Positions 54,670 to 63,876 of a DNA stretch of 64,000 nt are shown in pieces. Location of the stretch: NCBI GenBank assembly GCA_900537125.1, contig UNRJ01000002.1:248001-312000 (forward strand), read 5' to 3'. Position numbers and translations under genes: made by a program. Each line of letters opens with the position of its first letter. Positions within the stretch are counted from its first letter, which is position 1. Origin of the DNA: Rhodobacteraceae bacterium Alg238-R152. GTDB taxonomy: Bacteria; Pseudomonadota; Alphaproteobacteria; Rhodobacterales; Rhodobacteraceae. The notes under the pieces are model-generated. The model made no database searches and had not been told where the DNA came from. It saw only the letters and a program-made list of their open reading frames with translations.

Positions 54670-55499
54670 TCCAGCACAACCCGCCGTGTGGTGTTATCCA
54701 CCACCGGACGGCGACCAAACCAACGCTCAAACCCTGGCACGGCTTGATGCAGCAACATGCCCAGACCATCCACGGTCACACAGCCCGCTTCCTGAGCCGT
54801 GCGTAGGAAGGTTGTAGTCAACGGTGTATAGACCAGATCACTCACAATTGTCTCTTTGCGCAGCCCATCCATAGGCACCCGCAATTCCGATTTACCCGTC
54901 ATTCCAAGAGAGGTCGTGTTCACCAGCGTCGCTGCCTCCTCAAGAATATTGCCTGCTTGGACCCATTCCACCACTTTCACCCGTGCGCCAAAATCTTCCC
55001 GCAATTTGTCAGCTCGGACACGTGTGCGGTTGGTCAATAAAATCTCAGGCGCACCGGCATCGAGCAAAGAGGCCACCACAGCCCGCGCCGCACCACCGGC
55101 GCCCAAAACCACCGCTGGGCCAGCGGATGCATCCCACCCCGTCGCCCCCTGGCGCAGGTTTTCGATAAAGCCATATCCATCGGTGTTGTCACCCAAGATG
55201 CTACCGTCATTGAGAAATATCAGCGTGTTCACCGCCCCAATCAGTGTTGCGCGATCGGTGATCTGATCAACAAACTGCATCACGCGCTCTTTATGTGGGA
55301 TCGTCACGTTGCAGCCCACAAACCCCATCTTTGGCATCGCTTTCAACACATCTCCCAGAGCATCCGCCTCGACCTCAAGCGGCACATAGTGTCCGGCAAT
55401 GTCATAAGTCTTGAGCCAATGCCCATGCAGGACCGGTGATTTTGAGTGGGCAATCGGGTTCCCGATCACACCCGCCAATGGAATGGAGGGCAATGTCAT
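54666..55499 (-). CDS. aroE: shikimate 5-dehydrogenase AroE
   Basis: AroE reduces 3-dehydroshikimate to shikimate in aromatic amino-acid synthesis. The 277-residue protein shows GVIGNPIAHSKSPVLHG (substrate site), CNVTIPHKE with the catalytic Lys, NTDGYGF and the NADP fold VVLGAGGAARAVVASLLDAG. It overlaps maf at its start and coaE at its end. Confidence 0.95.
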   Translation of the reverse strand: MTLPSIPLAGVIGNPIAHSKSPVLHGHWLKTYDIAGHYVPLEVEADALGDVLKAMPKMGFVGCNVTIPHKERVMQFVDQITDRATLIGAVNTLIFLNDGSILGDNTDGYGFIENLRQGATGWDASAGPAVVLGAGGAARAVVASLLDAGAPEILLTNRTRVRADKLREDFGARVKVVEWVQAGNILEEAATLVNTTSLGMTGKSELRVPMDGLRKETIVSDLVYTPLTTTFLRTAQEAGCVTVDGLGMLLHQAVPGFERWFGRRPVVDNTTRRVVLE

Positions 55500-56095
55500 T
55501 GTGGCAGTTCTCCCCGTGTCGTCAGGAACGACAGAATTTCTACAAGCGGCATGCCAAGAACAGTGAAATAGTCCCCGTCAATCTTATCAAACAGACGCAC
55601 GCCTTCTTCTTCCAACTTATACCCACCAACCGAATGACGGATGCTGTCAAAGTTGCGATCCAGATAGCCCTCAAGGAAGTCGTTGCTGAATTGCCGCATG
55701 AACAGCCGCACAACACCCACATGTCGCCAAAGGGGCTCACCATTCTGATAGATCACAGCCGCAGACAACAACATGTGTCGCTGCCCACGCAACAATAATA
55801 GCTGATTGCGTGCGTCCTCAATGCTTTCCGGTTTAGAAAAAATTGTACCCTGGAAATCGAGCACTTGATCGCATCCAAGCACCAAAGCTTCCGGCCGCTT
55901 TAAGCTCACCTTTCGCGCTTTTCCCTCAGCCAAAGCATCCGCCACATCGCGCGGTGTGGCACCCTCAGCGCGCAAAGAGCGTTTTATCATCTCTTCATCT
56001 ACACGTGGCTTAACGATTTCGTAACCAACATTGGCGTTAGATAGGAGCTGAGCCCGTATCTCGGAGCCTGAAGCAAGGATCAGGGGTATGGTCAT
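55496..56095 (-). CDS. maf: Maf-family nucleoside triphosphate pyrophosphatase
   Basis: The 199-residue protein has the Maf fold: ILASGSEIRAQLLSNANV at the start, VLGCDQVLDFQG with the catalytic Asp and HSVGGYKLEEEGVRLFDKIDGDYFTVLGMPL near the end. Members hydrolyse non-canonical or modified nucleotides. ATG 56095 touches a perfect DnaA box (56095-56103), so the gene forms the left border of the probable origin. It leads the maf-aroE-coaE-dnaQ run with 4- to 8-bp overlaps. Confidence 0.93.
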   Translation of the reverse strand: MTIPLILASGSEIRAQLLSNANVGYEIVKPRVDEEMIKRSLRAEGATPRDVADALAEGKARKVSLKRPEALVLGCDQVLDFQGTIFSKPESIEDARNQLLLLRGQRHMLLSAAVIYQNGEPLWRHVGVVRLFMRQFSNDFLEGYLDRNFDSIRHSVGGYKLEEEGVRLFDKIDGDYFTVLGMPLVEILSFLTTRGELPQ

Positions 56096-56508
56096 GTGGA
56101 TAAACCCGTGGAGAAAGGAAGGAACTTCTTTGGAGTCCTTTCTGGAAACTTCTGTGGTATTTTGCAAGCTGGAGAAACTCTCCCCTGTTTCACGAAGATC
56201 CCCCGATTTTCTGCACGGTGGATGGGGAAAACTTTTTGCGTGGGAGGAATCATCTGCTTGCGAATTTCTCCACTTGATTATCCACAGTCATCCACCTGTT
56301 ACATTTCACCTAACTCACTGAAAATGTTAATATCATTTAACTTTCTCACCAGCCTGTGAGACTCTTTCTCAAGCTCTATCCATATGTGGGTAAGTGCCGG
56401 GGGAAATCGATAATCCACAGGATTGGTCGTCCCTACATAATCATCATCCTTTTCTATATATATTTATTTATTTAAGGAGGGTCAGGCAGGGAAAAGGATC
56501 TTACCGGC
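56095..56508. other. oriC: probable chromosomal replication origin (oriC)
   Basis: This is the longest gene-free stretch of the window and its most AT-rich part. DnaA boxes are perfect TTATCCACA at 56278-56286 (plus) and 56095-56103 (minus), and one-mismatch forms TAATCCACA at 56411-56419 and TTACCCACA at 56385-56393 (minus). A 25-bp block of A/T with a single C (56451-56475) would serve as unwinding element. TTAA repeats at 56327-56341 resemble a CtrA site with one base too short a spacer. The flanks (maf; hemJ, rho, mnmE, mnmG, rsmG, parAB) match alphaproteobacterial origins, and genes diverge on both sides. Confidence 0.75.
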
Positions 56509-56958
56509 ATGGGCTATTTTCTCGTCGATATTTACCCTTATGTGCTCTCACTGCATATCATCGCAGTGATCAGCTGGATGGCAGGTATTTTTTATCTCCC
56601 TCGTCTCTTTGTGTATCACGCAGAGAGAGCAAAGAAGGGGGACCAACTCGACGAAACCCTGAAGATCATGGAGTATAAGCTTCAGCGCTACATCATGGCA
56701 CCGGCCAGCATCGTGGCATGGGTTGCTGGTCTCACGCTTGTGTTCACACCAGGTGTGGTCGATTGGTCCGCAATTTGGCCCTACACCAAAATGTTTGGTG
56801 TGATCTCCATGACAGTGTTTGATCATTGGCTGATGATTATGCGGAAGAAGTTTGGCCGCGATGAAAACAAACTCTCCGGTCGCCAGTATCGCATGATGAA
56901 CGAAGTTCCGACGGTTTTGATGGTTCTGATTGTGGTCTCTGTTGTTGTAAAATTCTGA
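56509..56958 (+). CDS. hemJ: protoporphyrinogen oxidase HemJ
   Basis: The 149-residue integral membrane protein has four hydrophobic segments. It carries the HemJ-type His16 in SLHIIAVISWMAGIFYLPRLFVYH, and DETLKIMEYKLQRYIMAPA with a conserved Lys. HemJ oxidises protoporphyrinogen IX to protoporphyrin IX in organisms without HemG or HemY-type oxidase. The AAGGAGG at 56474-56480 is too far upstream to serve ATG 56509; AAGGA at 56494-56498 is the nearer, weaker site. It forms the right border of the probable origin. Confidence 0.88.
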   Translation: MGYFLVDIYPYVLSLHIIAVISWMAGIFYLPRLFVYHAERAKKGDQLDETLKIMEYKLQRYIMAPASIVAWVAGLTLVFTPGVVDWSAIWPYTKMFGVISMTVFDHWLMIMRKKFGRDENKLSGRQYRMMNEVPTVLMVLIVVSVVVKF

Positions 56959-57080: not shown

Positions 57081-58352
<1,272 letters not shown>

Positions 58353-59676: not shown

Positions 59677-59692
59677 TGTTTCACGTGAAACA
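59677..59692. other. parS: parS centromere site 1, overlapping the mnmG start codon
   Basis: A perfect 16-bp parS palindrome TGTTTCACGTGAAACA. ParB nucleates on this sequence. The central GTG (59685) is the likely start codon of mnmG, so the site covers the translation start and the first codons. Confidence 0.92.
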
Positions 59693-61547: not shown

Positions 61548-62185
61548 TGAACTGTCCAGATACGGTAAAAGCTCAACTCAATGTTTCACGTGAAACATTG
61601 GTACGATTGGAAACGCTTGCTGATTTGTTGGTGAAGTGGAATCCACGCATCAATCTGGTATCCAAGTCCACTATCCGGGATTTATGGTCTCGCCACATTT
61701 TGGATTCGGTACAGATATTACGGCTGGCGCCCGCCAAAGCCACACATTGGGTGGATATCGGCAGTGGAGGAGGCTTTCCGGGTTTGGTGATTGCGTTGAT
61801 GTGTGATGAGCCTGAGGCCCCAGGTAATGTGACTTTGATCGAAAGTGACATGCGTAAATGTGCTTTCTTGCGCACTGTCCTGCGCGAAACCGGCGTGCAT
61901 TCCACCGTGATCACCGAACGCATCGAAAAAGCCGTGCCACAGAACGCAGATGTGCTTTCCGCACGGGCTTTGGCCGATTTGTCGATGCTTTTGGGATTTT
62001 CGGAGAGGCATTTGAAGGAAACTGGTACGGCGGTGTTCCCAAAAGGCGCACGCTGGCAAAAAGAACTGCAAACCGCACAGGAATCGTGGTCATTTGATTG
62101 CGAAGTGGTAAAAAGTATCACGGACCCAGAAGCGGTCATCCTGAAGATCGGAGATCTCACACGTGTCGGACCCCACTCGCCCTAA
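61547..62185 (+). CDS. rsmG: 16S rRNA (guanine-527-N7)-methyltransferase RsmG (GidB)
   Basis: The 212-residue SAM-dependent methyltransferase modifies G527 of 16S rRNA. It has ITLVSKSTIRDLWSRHILDSVQ-type family sequence (here NLVSKST), SAM site VDIGSGGGFPGLVIAL and VLSARALADLSMLL. The NVSRET near its N-terminus is encoded by parS site 2. The start overlaps the mnmG stop by one base; the end overlaps parA by 23 bp. Confidence 0.95.
   Translation: MNCPDTVKAQLNVSRETLVRLETLADLLVKWNPRINLVSKSTIRDLWSRHILDSVQILRLAPAKATHWVDIGSGGGFPGLVIALMCDEPEAPGNVTLIESDMRKCAFLRTVLRETGVHSTVITERIEKAVPQNADVLSARALADLSMLLGFSERHLKETGTAVFPKGARWQKELQTAQESWSFDCEVVKSITDPEAVILKIGDLTRVGPHSP
61582..61597. other. parS: parS centromere site 2, inside rsmG
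   Basis: A second perfect TGTTTCACGTGAAACA, 1.9 kb from the first and 1.4 kb before parB. It is read as part of codons 12-18 of rsmG, giving the NVSRET segment. Confidence 0.92.
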
Positions 62186-62972
62186 AGGGCCAAAAATCGT
62201 TGCAGTGGCCAACCAAAAGGGTGGCGTGGGCAAAACAACAACCACAATCAATCTTGCCGCCGCTCTGGCAGAAGAAGGCTGTCGGGTGCTTTTGATTGAT
62301 CTTGATCCCCAGGGGAACGCCTCTACTGGGCTTGGTGTTGATGTCGAAGACCGGGTTCACACGACATATGATCTCCTGACCGGTGATGTAGAGCTGGAAG
62401 ATGTTGTTCAAGCTACGAGCTCGAATAACATGTCGATCGTACCAGCCACGGTGGATTTAAGCTCGGCTGACATCGAGCTTATGTCCAACGAAAAGCGGAG
62501 CTTCCTTCTGCATGATGCACTGCGCCAAACGGCCATGGATAAATACGAATTTGATTACATTTTGATCGATTGTCCGCCCTCTTTGAGCCTCTTGACTGTC
62601 AACGCGATGATTGCAGCAGACTCCGTTTTGATTCCGCTACAGAGCGAATTTTTTGCACTGGAAGGCCTCTCTCAGCTCATGTTGACCGTACGAGAAGTGC
62701 GTCAGACCGCCAATTCTGACCTGCGTATCGAAGGTATTGTGCTGACCATGTTTGATGCCCGCAACAACCTGTCCCAACAGGTGGAGCAAGATGCGCGTGA
62801 CAATTTGGGGGAACTGGTGTTTGAGACCAAGATTCCGCGAAACGTGCGTGTTTCCGAAGCCCCTTCTTTTGCGCAACCTGTATTGGATTACGATCCAAGC
62901 TCTAAAGGGGCGGAAGCTTACCGCGCTTTGGCCAAAGAACTATTGGCCAAGAACTTGAAAATTGCTGCGTAA
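62163..62972 (+). CDS. parA: chromosome-partitioning ATPase ParA
   Basis: The 269-residue protein has the deviant Walker A KGGVGKTT (19-26), the DLDPQGNASTGLG switch and YILIDCPPSLSLLTVNAM as Walker B. It binds DNA non-specifically when ATP-bound and moves ParB-parS complexes. It starts at GTG 62163 inside rsmG (23-bp overlap), and parB follows after 10 bp. Confidence 0.95.
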   Translation: MSDPTRPKGPKIVAVANQKGGVGKTTTTINLAAALAEEGCRVLLIDLDPQGNASTGLGVDVEDRVHTTYDLLTGDVELEDVVQATSSNNMSIVPATVDLSSADIELMSNEKRSFLLHDALRQTAMDKYEFDYILIDCPPSLSLLTVNAMIAADSVLIPLQSEFFALEGLSQLMLTVREVRQTANSDLRIEGIVLTMFDARNNLSQQVEQDARDNLGELVFETKIPRNVRVSEAPSFAQPVLDYDPSSKGAEAYRALAKELLAKNLKIAA

Positions 62973-62982
62973 GGGGTAGATC

Positions 62983-63876
62983 ATGGCAGATAAGAAAAAA
63001 CAGCGTGGCCTCGGTCGCGGCCTCAGTGCCTTAATGGCTGATGTGACCGTGGATACCGCCCGTCAGAACAGTGACGCCGCGCCGAGGCGTGCTGACCTTC
63101 TGGTGCCCATCGAACGTATTGAGCCAAATCCGGATCAACCACGTCGTGATTTTACACCGGAACAGCTCGAAGATCTGGCCAACTCCATTCGTGAAAAAGG
63201 CGTGATTCAGCCGCTGATCGTGCGCAAGAAGCCTGACGATCGATATGAAATTGTTGCAGGGGAACGCCGCTGGCGCGCCTCTCAAATGGCACAACTTCAT
63301 GAGTTGCCAATTATTGTCCGTGACTATGACGATACCGAAGTGCTCGAAATTGCGATCATTGAGAACATTCAGCGCGCTGATCTGAACCCGGTTGAAGAGG
63401 CGATGGGGTATCGCCAGTTGATGCTCAAATTTGGTCATACACAGGAAAAGGTCTCAGAGGCACTTGGCAAAAGCCGCAGCCATATTGCCAACCTCATGCG
63501 CCTGCTCAACTTGCCGGATGATGTGCAGGGTATGTTGCGTGATGGCATATTGTCGGCGGGTCATGCACGGGCGCTGGTCACCTCTGATAACGCTTCAGAG
63601 CTCGCCCGCAAAGTAGTGAAAGATGGCCTCTCGGTGCGTCAGACTGAAAAACTGGCCAAAAAAACAGGCTCTCTCGTCGCGCAAACCAAAACATCTCGCC
63701 CAAAGACCCATAAGGACGCCGATACAGTCGCGCTGGAAGGCGATCTTTCGGCAAATTTGGGGATGAAAGTGGCGGTTGATCACGTTTCAGGTGGGGAAAG
63801 CGGAAAAATTACCATTTCATATCAAACGCTTGATGATCTTGATGAGCTTTGCCGAATTTTGTCTTCTACGAATTAG
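62983..63876 (+). CDS. parB: chromosome-partitioning protein ParB
   Basis: The 297-residue CTPase clamp protein has an N-terminal ParA-contact segment (RGLGRGLSALMAD), the CTP-binding ParB/Srx domain with PDQPRRDF and GERRWRA, IIENIQRADLNPVEEA, and the HTH HTQEKVSEALGKSRSHIANLMRLL that reads parS. The C-terminal dimerisation part is present. Two parS sites lie upstream in mnmG and rsmG. Its last 11 bases overlap the 3' end of a minus-strand gene. Confidence 0.96.
   Translation: MADKKKQRGLGRGLSALMADVTVDTARQNSDAAPRRADLLVPIERIEPNPDQPRRDFTPEQLEDLANSIREKGVIQPLIVRKKPDDRYEIVAGERRWRASQMAQLHELPIIVRDYDDTEVLEIAIIENIQRADLNPVEEAMGYRQLMLKFGHTQEKVSEALGKSRSHIANLMRLLNLPDDVQGMLRDGILSAGHARALVTSDNASELARKVVKDGLSVRQTEKLAKKTGSLVAQTKTSRPKTHKDADTVALEGDLSANLGMKVAVDHVSGGESGKITISYQTLDDLDELCRILSSTN

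Follow-up and report, generated by a model that had tools for sequence, protein, structure and literature searches.

The 413-base gap between maf and hemJ, at positions 56096–56508 of the window (the whole stretch of 64,000 nucleotides analysed here), is very probably the DnaA-dependent chromosomal origin (oriC) of a Shimia-like member of the Rhodobacteraceae, as judged from sequence comparison. An earlier sequence-only reading had proposed a probable chromosomal origin between maf and hemJ, and this proposal is now supported by the agreement of a cluster of DnaA boxes, a local flip of GC skew, nearby parS sites, conservation of the gap in relatives, and matches of a sequence profile of its hemJ-side end (R1) at the hemE/COG1806 position of other Alphaproteobacteria.

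Gene neighbourhood and parS sites

The source genome consisted of 4,265,012 bases in 14 unordered contigs, and the window corresponded to G000:C2:248001-312000 on a contig of 660,104 bp (C2). The closest relatives of its HemJ belonged to Shimia (96% identity at best); thus, the host is called Shimia-like. Nine proteins in the window were named by Pfam (Maf, UPF0093 (HemJ), Rho, MnmE, MnmG, RsmG, ParA, ParB, and AroE), and coaE and dnaQ were assigned by eye. The gap was flanked on the left by maf (55496–56095, minus strand, PF02545) and on the right by a PF03653/UPF0093 gene (56509–56958, plus strand), which we take to be hemJ. Farther to the right were rho (57081–58352, plus strand, PF07497 and others), parA (62163–62972, plus strand, PF13614), and parB (62983–63876, plus strand, PF02195, PF17762, and PF23552). 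The divergence of gene orientation on both sides, as previously described, held for the immediate flanks, with maf, aroE, coaE, and dnaQ on the minus strand and hemJ, rho, mnmE, mnmG, rsmG, parA, and parB on the plus strand; it was only local, since secB-like and fxsA-like frames farther left lay on the plus strand. The gene cluster in the family likewise comprised maf-aroE-coaE-dnaQ on one side and rho-mnmE-mnmG-rsmG-parAB on the other. The dnaA gene was located at C2:41930-43288, approximately 261 kb from the gap.

A pattern search retrieved two perfect parS sites, within the starts of mnmG (59677–59692) and rsmG (61582–61597). These were the only parS sites in the whole genome at up to one mismatch, lying 3.2 and 5.1 kb from the gap; parAB was likewise close to it. 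All three relatives checked also had exactly two parS sites, 3–6 kb from the maf-hemJ locus (distances worked out from contig ranges).

DnaA boxes and the A/T-rich block

Pattern matching located four DnaA boxes at the gap. Two were perfect copies of TTATCCACA, at 56095–56103 (minus strand, sharing the first base of the maf start codon) and 56278–56286 (plus strand), and two carried one mismatch, namely TTACCCACA at 56385–56393 (minus strand) and TAATCCACA at 56411–56419 (plus strand), the latter being a conserved non-consensus box and the closest to the putative unwinding region. The two perfect boxes were the only ones in the window. With up to one mismatch allowed, 17 boxes were found in the window and 111 on contig C2; the densest 414-bp spans of the window, with four boxes each, all fell at the gap, and this four-box cluster was unique on the contig, where the maximum elsewhere was two. 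Among 5000 dinucleotide shuffles of the gap, none reached two perfect boxes and none reached four boxes at up to one mismatch. Perfect boxes numbered 38 genome-wide versus 19 for the reversed pattern, which means that perfect boxes alone are not rare, whereas their clustering is.

The A/T-rich block at 56450–56475 is proposed, on the basis of its A/T content and conservation, as a candidate DNA unwinding element, and no 25-mer elsewhere in the window was richer in A/T than the one it held (24 of 25 bases A/T, starting at 56450 or 56451). Both the two perfect and two one-mismatch boxes and the 25-bp nearly pure A/T block of the sequence-only reading were thus recovered. Between the last box and this block, the alignment of relatives showed conservation of a CTAC...TCATCATCCTTTTC stretch that has a period of three bases (56433–56454, plus strand) and is a candidate DnaA-trio. 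A box cluster above chance in one gap and an adjoining A/T-rich element are both present; for the A/T-rich element, the finding concerns presence and not unwinding.

With regard to other motifs, the strict CtrA site TTAA-N7-TTAA was absent from the window (CtrA was otherwise covered by TTAA counts only), which gave no evidence for CtrA control of the gap; 10 of the 80 family gaps contained a strict site. The IHF pattern had no match within the gap, and no Rfam family reached its gathering score in the window. Three GANTC (CcrM-type) sites were present in the gap (56133, 56247, and 56360), versus 0.66 expected from the 102 in the window.

GC skew

Because the genome was in 14 unordered contigs, skew was read per contig and not as a whole-replicon curve. 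All 28 of the 2-kb bins left of 56000 in the window were negative and all four to the right were positive, placing the sign change at 56.0 kb. The cumulative-skew minimum of contig C2 was at C2:338403, approximately 34 kb to the right of the gap, where it was displaced because 9 of the 13 2-kb bins at 312–338 kb were negative. The sequence-only reading had named a skew minimum elsewhere as evidence against its proposal, and the outcome was divided: the local flip was at the gap, but the cumulative minimum of the contig was 34 kb away. That minimum and the negative bins beside it would fit an active origin some tens of kilobases to the right of the gap; however, neither a box cluster, nor an R1 match, nor a parS site was found near C2:338403, and the mixed coding strands at 312.5–338 kb (13,533 bp plus versus 12,222 bp minus) fit a rearranged stretch, so that we regard such an origin as extremely improbable. 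The stretch itself (G000:C2:312000-338000), with its mostly negative skew, mixed strands, and cumulative minimum moved by 34 kb, is perhaps a recent rearrangement. A second irregularity was observed at G000:C2:100000-180000, where the skew was positive, the wrong sign, inside an otherwise negative left arm.

In Shimia biformata (a 3.1-Mb contig, 20 samples of 12 kb), the five samples up to 364 kb were negative, 10 of the 11 from 369 kb to 2.18 Mb were positive, and the remainder were three negative and one zero; the skew thus flipped at the locus (~366.6 kb). In strain QY30, samples to the left and right of the locus (~50 kb) were negative, as were those up to 132 kb, and the sign was positive by 340 kb. 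The flip was therefore somewhere between 132 and 340 kb and, as far as the sampling resolved, not at the locus, and the skew of QY30 neither supports nor excludes an origin at the locus.

Conservation of the gap among relatives

A total of 80 loci were found with HemJ, of which 79 had maf beside hemJ (L054, without maf, was dropped); together with the window, these provided 80 gaps. The maf-hemJ gap was of similar length in all 80 sequences (median 409 bp). At least one perfect DnaA box was present in 46 gaps and none in 34, and 50 of the 80 had three or more boxes at up to one mismatch, the median chance expectation being 0.08 boxes. In 72 of the 80, a 25-mer reached 88% A/T or more. The 18 aligned Shimia-type sequences had a box-like sequence at the position of the maf-start box. 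Conservation was strongest at the hemJ end, where the TAATCCACA box was followed by CTAC, TCATCATCC, and T-rich sequence. The TAATCC columns of this box were kept in 89–99% of the 80 sequences, and its second base was A in at least 69 of the 80 gaps, a count biased by anchoring on this motif. The maf-hemJ gap is very probably the ordinary origin of the family, in a family-typical rather than an odd neighbourhood.

A tandem second box behind TAATCCACA was considered and rejected, as only 6 of the 80 gaps had one at up to two mismatches. Two loci (L053 and L078) had two directly abutting DnaA boxes approximately 100 bp before hemJ, ahead of the conserved stretch; these resemble the published tandem-box arrangement, whose second box was not recognisable in the window.

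A profile of the hemJ-side end across the class

R1 is a 118-position, sequence-only model of the hemJ-side end built from 30 Rhodobacteraceae, and in the window it matched 56369–56480 (plus strand; box, spacer, CATCATCC, and T-rich block). It matched 59 of 80 family genomes, in one place each, a figure that is not independent given that R1 was trained on family sequences and some of the family genomes have contigs equal in length to training records (e.g., 141502 and 176658 bases). The independent result is that for the class, in which 24 of 142 alphaproteobacterial genomes, the source genome and one congener included, had a single match (E-values from 7e-24 to 1e-3). Under the strict filters used, there was no match in 21 of the 80 family genomes and 118 of the 142 class genomes. 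Neighbouring genes were examined at 20 loci from each set (of 59 family and 24 class matches). All 20 family loci were bordered by maf, aroE, or COG1806 at one end; at the other end, 17 were bordered by hemJ and three by rho. In these last three, the module immediately preceded rho and left no space for hemJ, which means that it is not tied to hemJ. Regarding the 18 class loci counted without the source genome and its congener, 11 were between hemE and COG1806, two between maf and hemE, three between rho and COG1806 or maf, and one next to hemE, with no hit on the opposite flank. Seventeen of the 18 thus occupied the hemE/COG1806 position or another place within that gene cluster, and one (L181) was without these genes. 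On re-searching the locus, L179, one of the rho-maf class loci, had no score at E<=0.01. L181, from a large alphaproteobacterial genome, had two R1 matches (1501–1575 and 1730–1803, 229 bp apart, the second with E 0.003), which may be false or may reflect a repeat or another replicon.

Experiments have placed the origin of Caulobacter in the hemE-COG1806 gap (PMC1914354). R1 was never trained on hemE-COG1806 sequence and yet landed there, which is the main reason for our confidence in the origin. By sequence resemblance, a related element appears recognisable at the hemE/COG1806 origin position of some distant Alphaproteobacteria.

These loci also bear on the reading of the gap as only a divergent, DnaA-regulated regulatory region of maf and hemJ, with the origin elsewhere. 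DnaA boxes occur in promoters too, and a second cluster, with two perfect boxes and one one-mismatch box, was found at C5:250862-250957, where one of the two neighbours is a YbjN-family gene. A weak promoter-like match was also present at 56414–56441, but the region's total of three such matches fell inside the spread given by shuffles (mean 1.7, sd 1.3). We consider this reading very improbable: the module is retained at loci that lack hemJ (3 of the 20 in the family) and at those where it adjoins hemE or rho, the skew flips at 56.0 kb, and the C5 cluster has no R1 match and no origin-cluster genes among its listed neighbours. As a separate observation, the three boxes on C5 (G000:C5:250862-250957; L122:10862-10957) lie within approximately 100 bp, in a gap between the YbjN-family gene and a divergent gene. 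This cluster could serve to titrate DnaA or be under DnaA regulation; it was rejected as an origin for want of an R1 match and origin-type neighbours.

The changed flanks of the gap

According to the sequence-only reading, the usual hemE was missing and hemJ took its place. hemE was indeed absent beside the gap, being located on another contig in the source genome (G000:C5:331487-332509), but the word usual fits Caulobacter and Rickettsia, not Rhodobacteraceae. In all six genomes checked, hemE was away from the origin, and its absence beside the gap is normal for the family. COG1806 (PF03618) had no match in the source genome, and of 61 family genomes five carried it; where seen in the family loci (L193, L194, and L204; 3 of 20), it lay between maf and the module. 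In the simplest history, COG1806 would have been lost and hemE would have moved, leaving maf and hemJ as neighbours. Flanking by hemE and COG1806 was not found at the gap and the homologous module was found in it; on sequence likeness, the gap is filed as a putative homologous position with changed flanks, not as the hemE/COG1806 layout itself.

Candidate unwinding stretch and box strength

The search for a DnaA-trio asked for three or more in-register triplets with a central A, no farther from a box than the 16 bp used as a limit in PMC8287927. The gap had six triplets at a 17-bp spacer, a run equalled by 5% of 200 shuffles. Three or more triplets, starting 4–20 bp after the box, were found in 26 of the 80 family gaps; with starts 10–26 bp after the box, the uncontrolled count was 69 of 80. 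The order of box, short spacer, three-base repeats, and A/T-rich stretch resembles that of the basal unwinding system (PMC8287927 and PMC6669920), as does the box-proximal 3'-GAT-5' at 13 bp. Unlike that system, the triplets after 3'-GAT-5' in the gap lose the central adenine in that register, and the register keeping it starts 17 bp after the box, exceeding the 16-bp limit (PMC8287927) by one. The six-triplet register was not kept across the family.

The T-to-G change that distinguishes Caulobacter G-boxes is at their second base. This conserved change lowers their affinity (PMC4468827), and together with the second-base A of the family gaps it makes plausible, by analogy, that the hemJ-end box is kept weak, as the G-boxes are.

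The boxes, A/T block, conservation, order, gene context, and parS sites come directly from the sequence, and from them we infer DnaA binding, the opening point, and activity. DnaA-ATP would bind first to the two perfect boxes and then cooperatively to the weaker ones; from the box at 56411, nearest the A/T block, a DnaA filament would extend over the CTAC...CATCATCC stretch and open the block at 56450–56475. The helicase would then be loaded, two forks would leave, one toward maf and one toward hemJ-rho-parAB, and ParB on the two parS sites would separate the new origins.

Discussion

The gap resembles Cori of Caulobacter crescentus and the origin of Rickettsia prowazekii in its length of approximately 400 bp, gene cluster, DnaA boxes, A/T-rich stretch, and parS within 8 kb. 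In contrast to Cori, the source genome has no COG1806 match and carries hemE on a different contig. Moreover, Cori has five CtrA sites (PMC1914354), versus no strict CtrA site in the window, and uses weak G- and W-boxes (PMC4468827), versus two perfect DnaA boxes in the gap. Marker frequency in Hyphomonas neptunium peaks near hemE (PMC6650430), and marker-frequency data exist for Cereibacter and Paracoccus (PMC13342612). In Rhodobacteraceae, oriCs were predicted with Ori-Finder for 101 strains (PMC6699656), that is, in the same family and by the same criteria (boxes, skew, and parAB) as the gap; maf and hemJ do not occur in the main text of that paper, supplementary tables apart.

It is quite possible, although we would stop short of calling it probable, that alphaproteobacterial origins share a module of approximately 75 bp that has survived while its flanking genes hemE, COG1806, and hemJ were lost or moved, and whose box is purposely weak. 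The proposed module would consist of a weak box TAATCC[A/C]C, a nearly fixed spacer of 13–14 bp, C[T/A]AC, three-base repeats, and a T-rich strand; no description of it was found in the open-licence literature. If this is true, the ~75-bp module could by itself suffice to find origins in draft genomes, with neither skew nor gene order needed. The R1 result also bears on a published statement, made about Rickettsiales, that alphaproteobacterial origin sequences are alike only among close relatives (PMC1914354), in that it appears possible to align part of the gap across the class. Overall, the assignment would fix the origin of the Shimia-type chromosome to one 413-bp gap and explain the absence of its textbook neighbour hemE, and the class-alignable part of the gap would offer a concrete target for studying how DnaA opens alphaproteobacterial origins.
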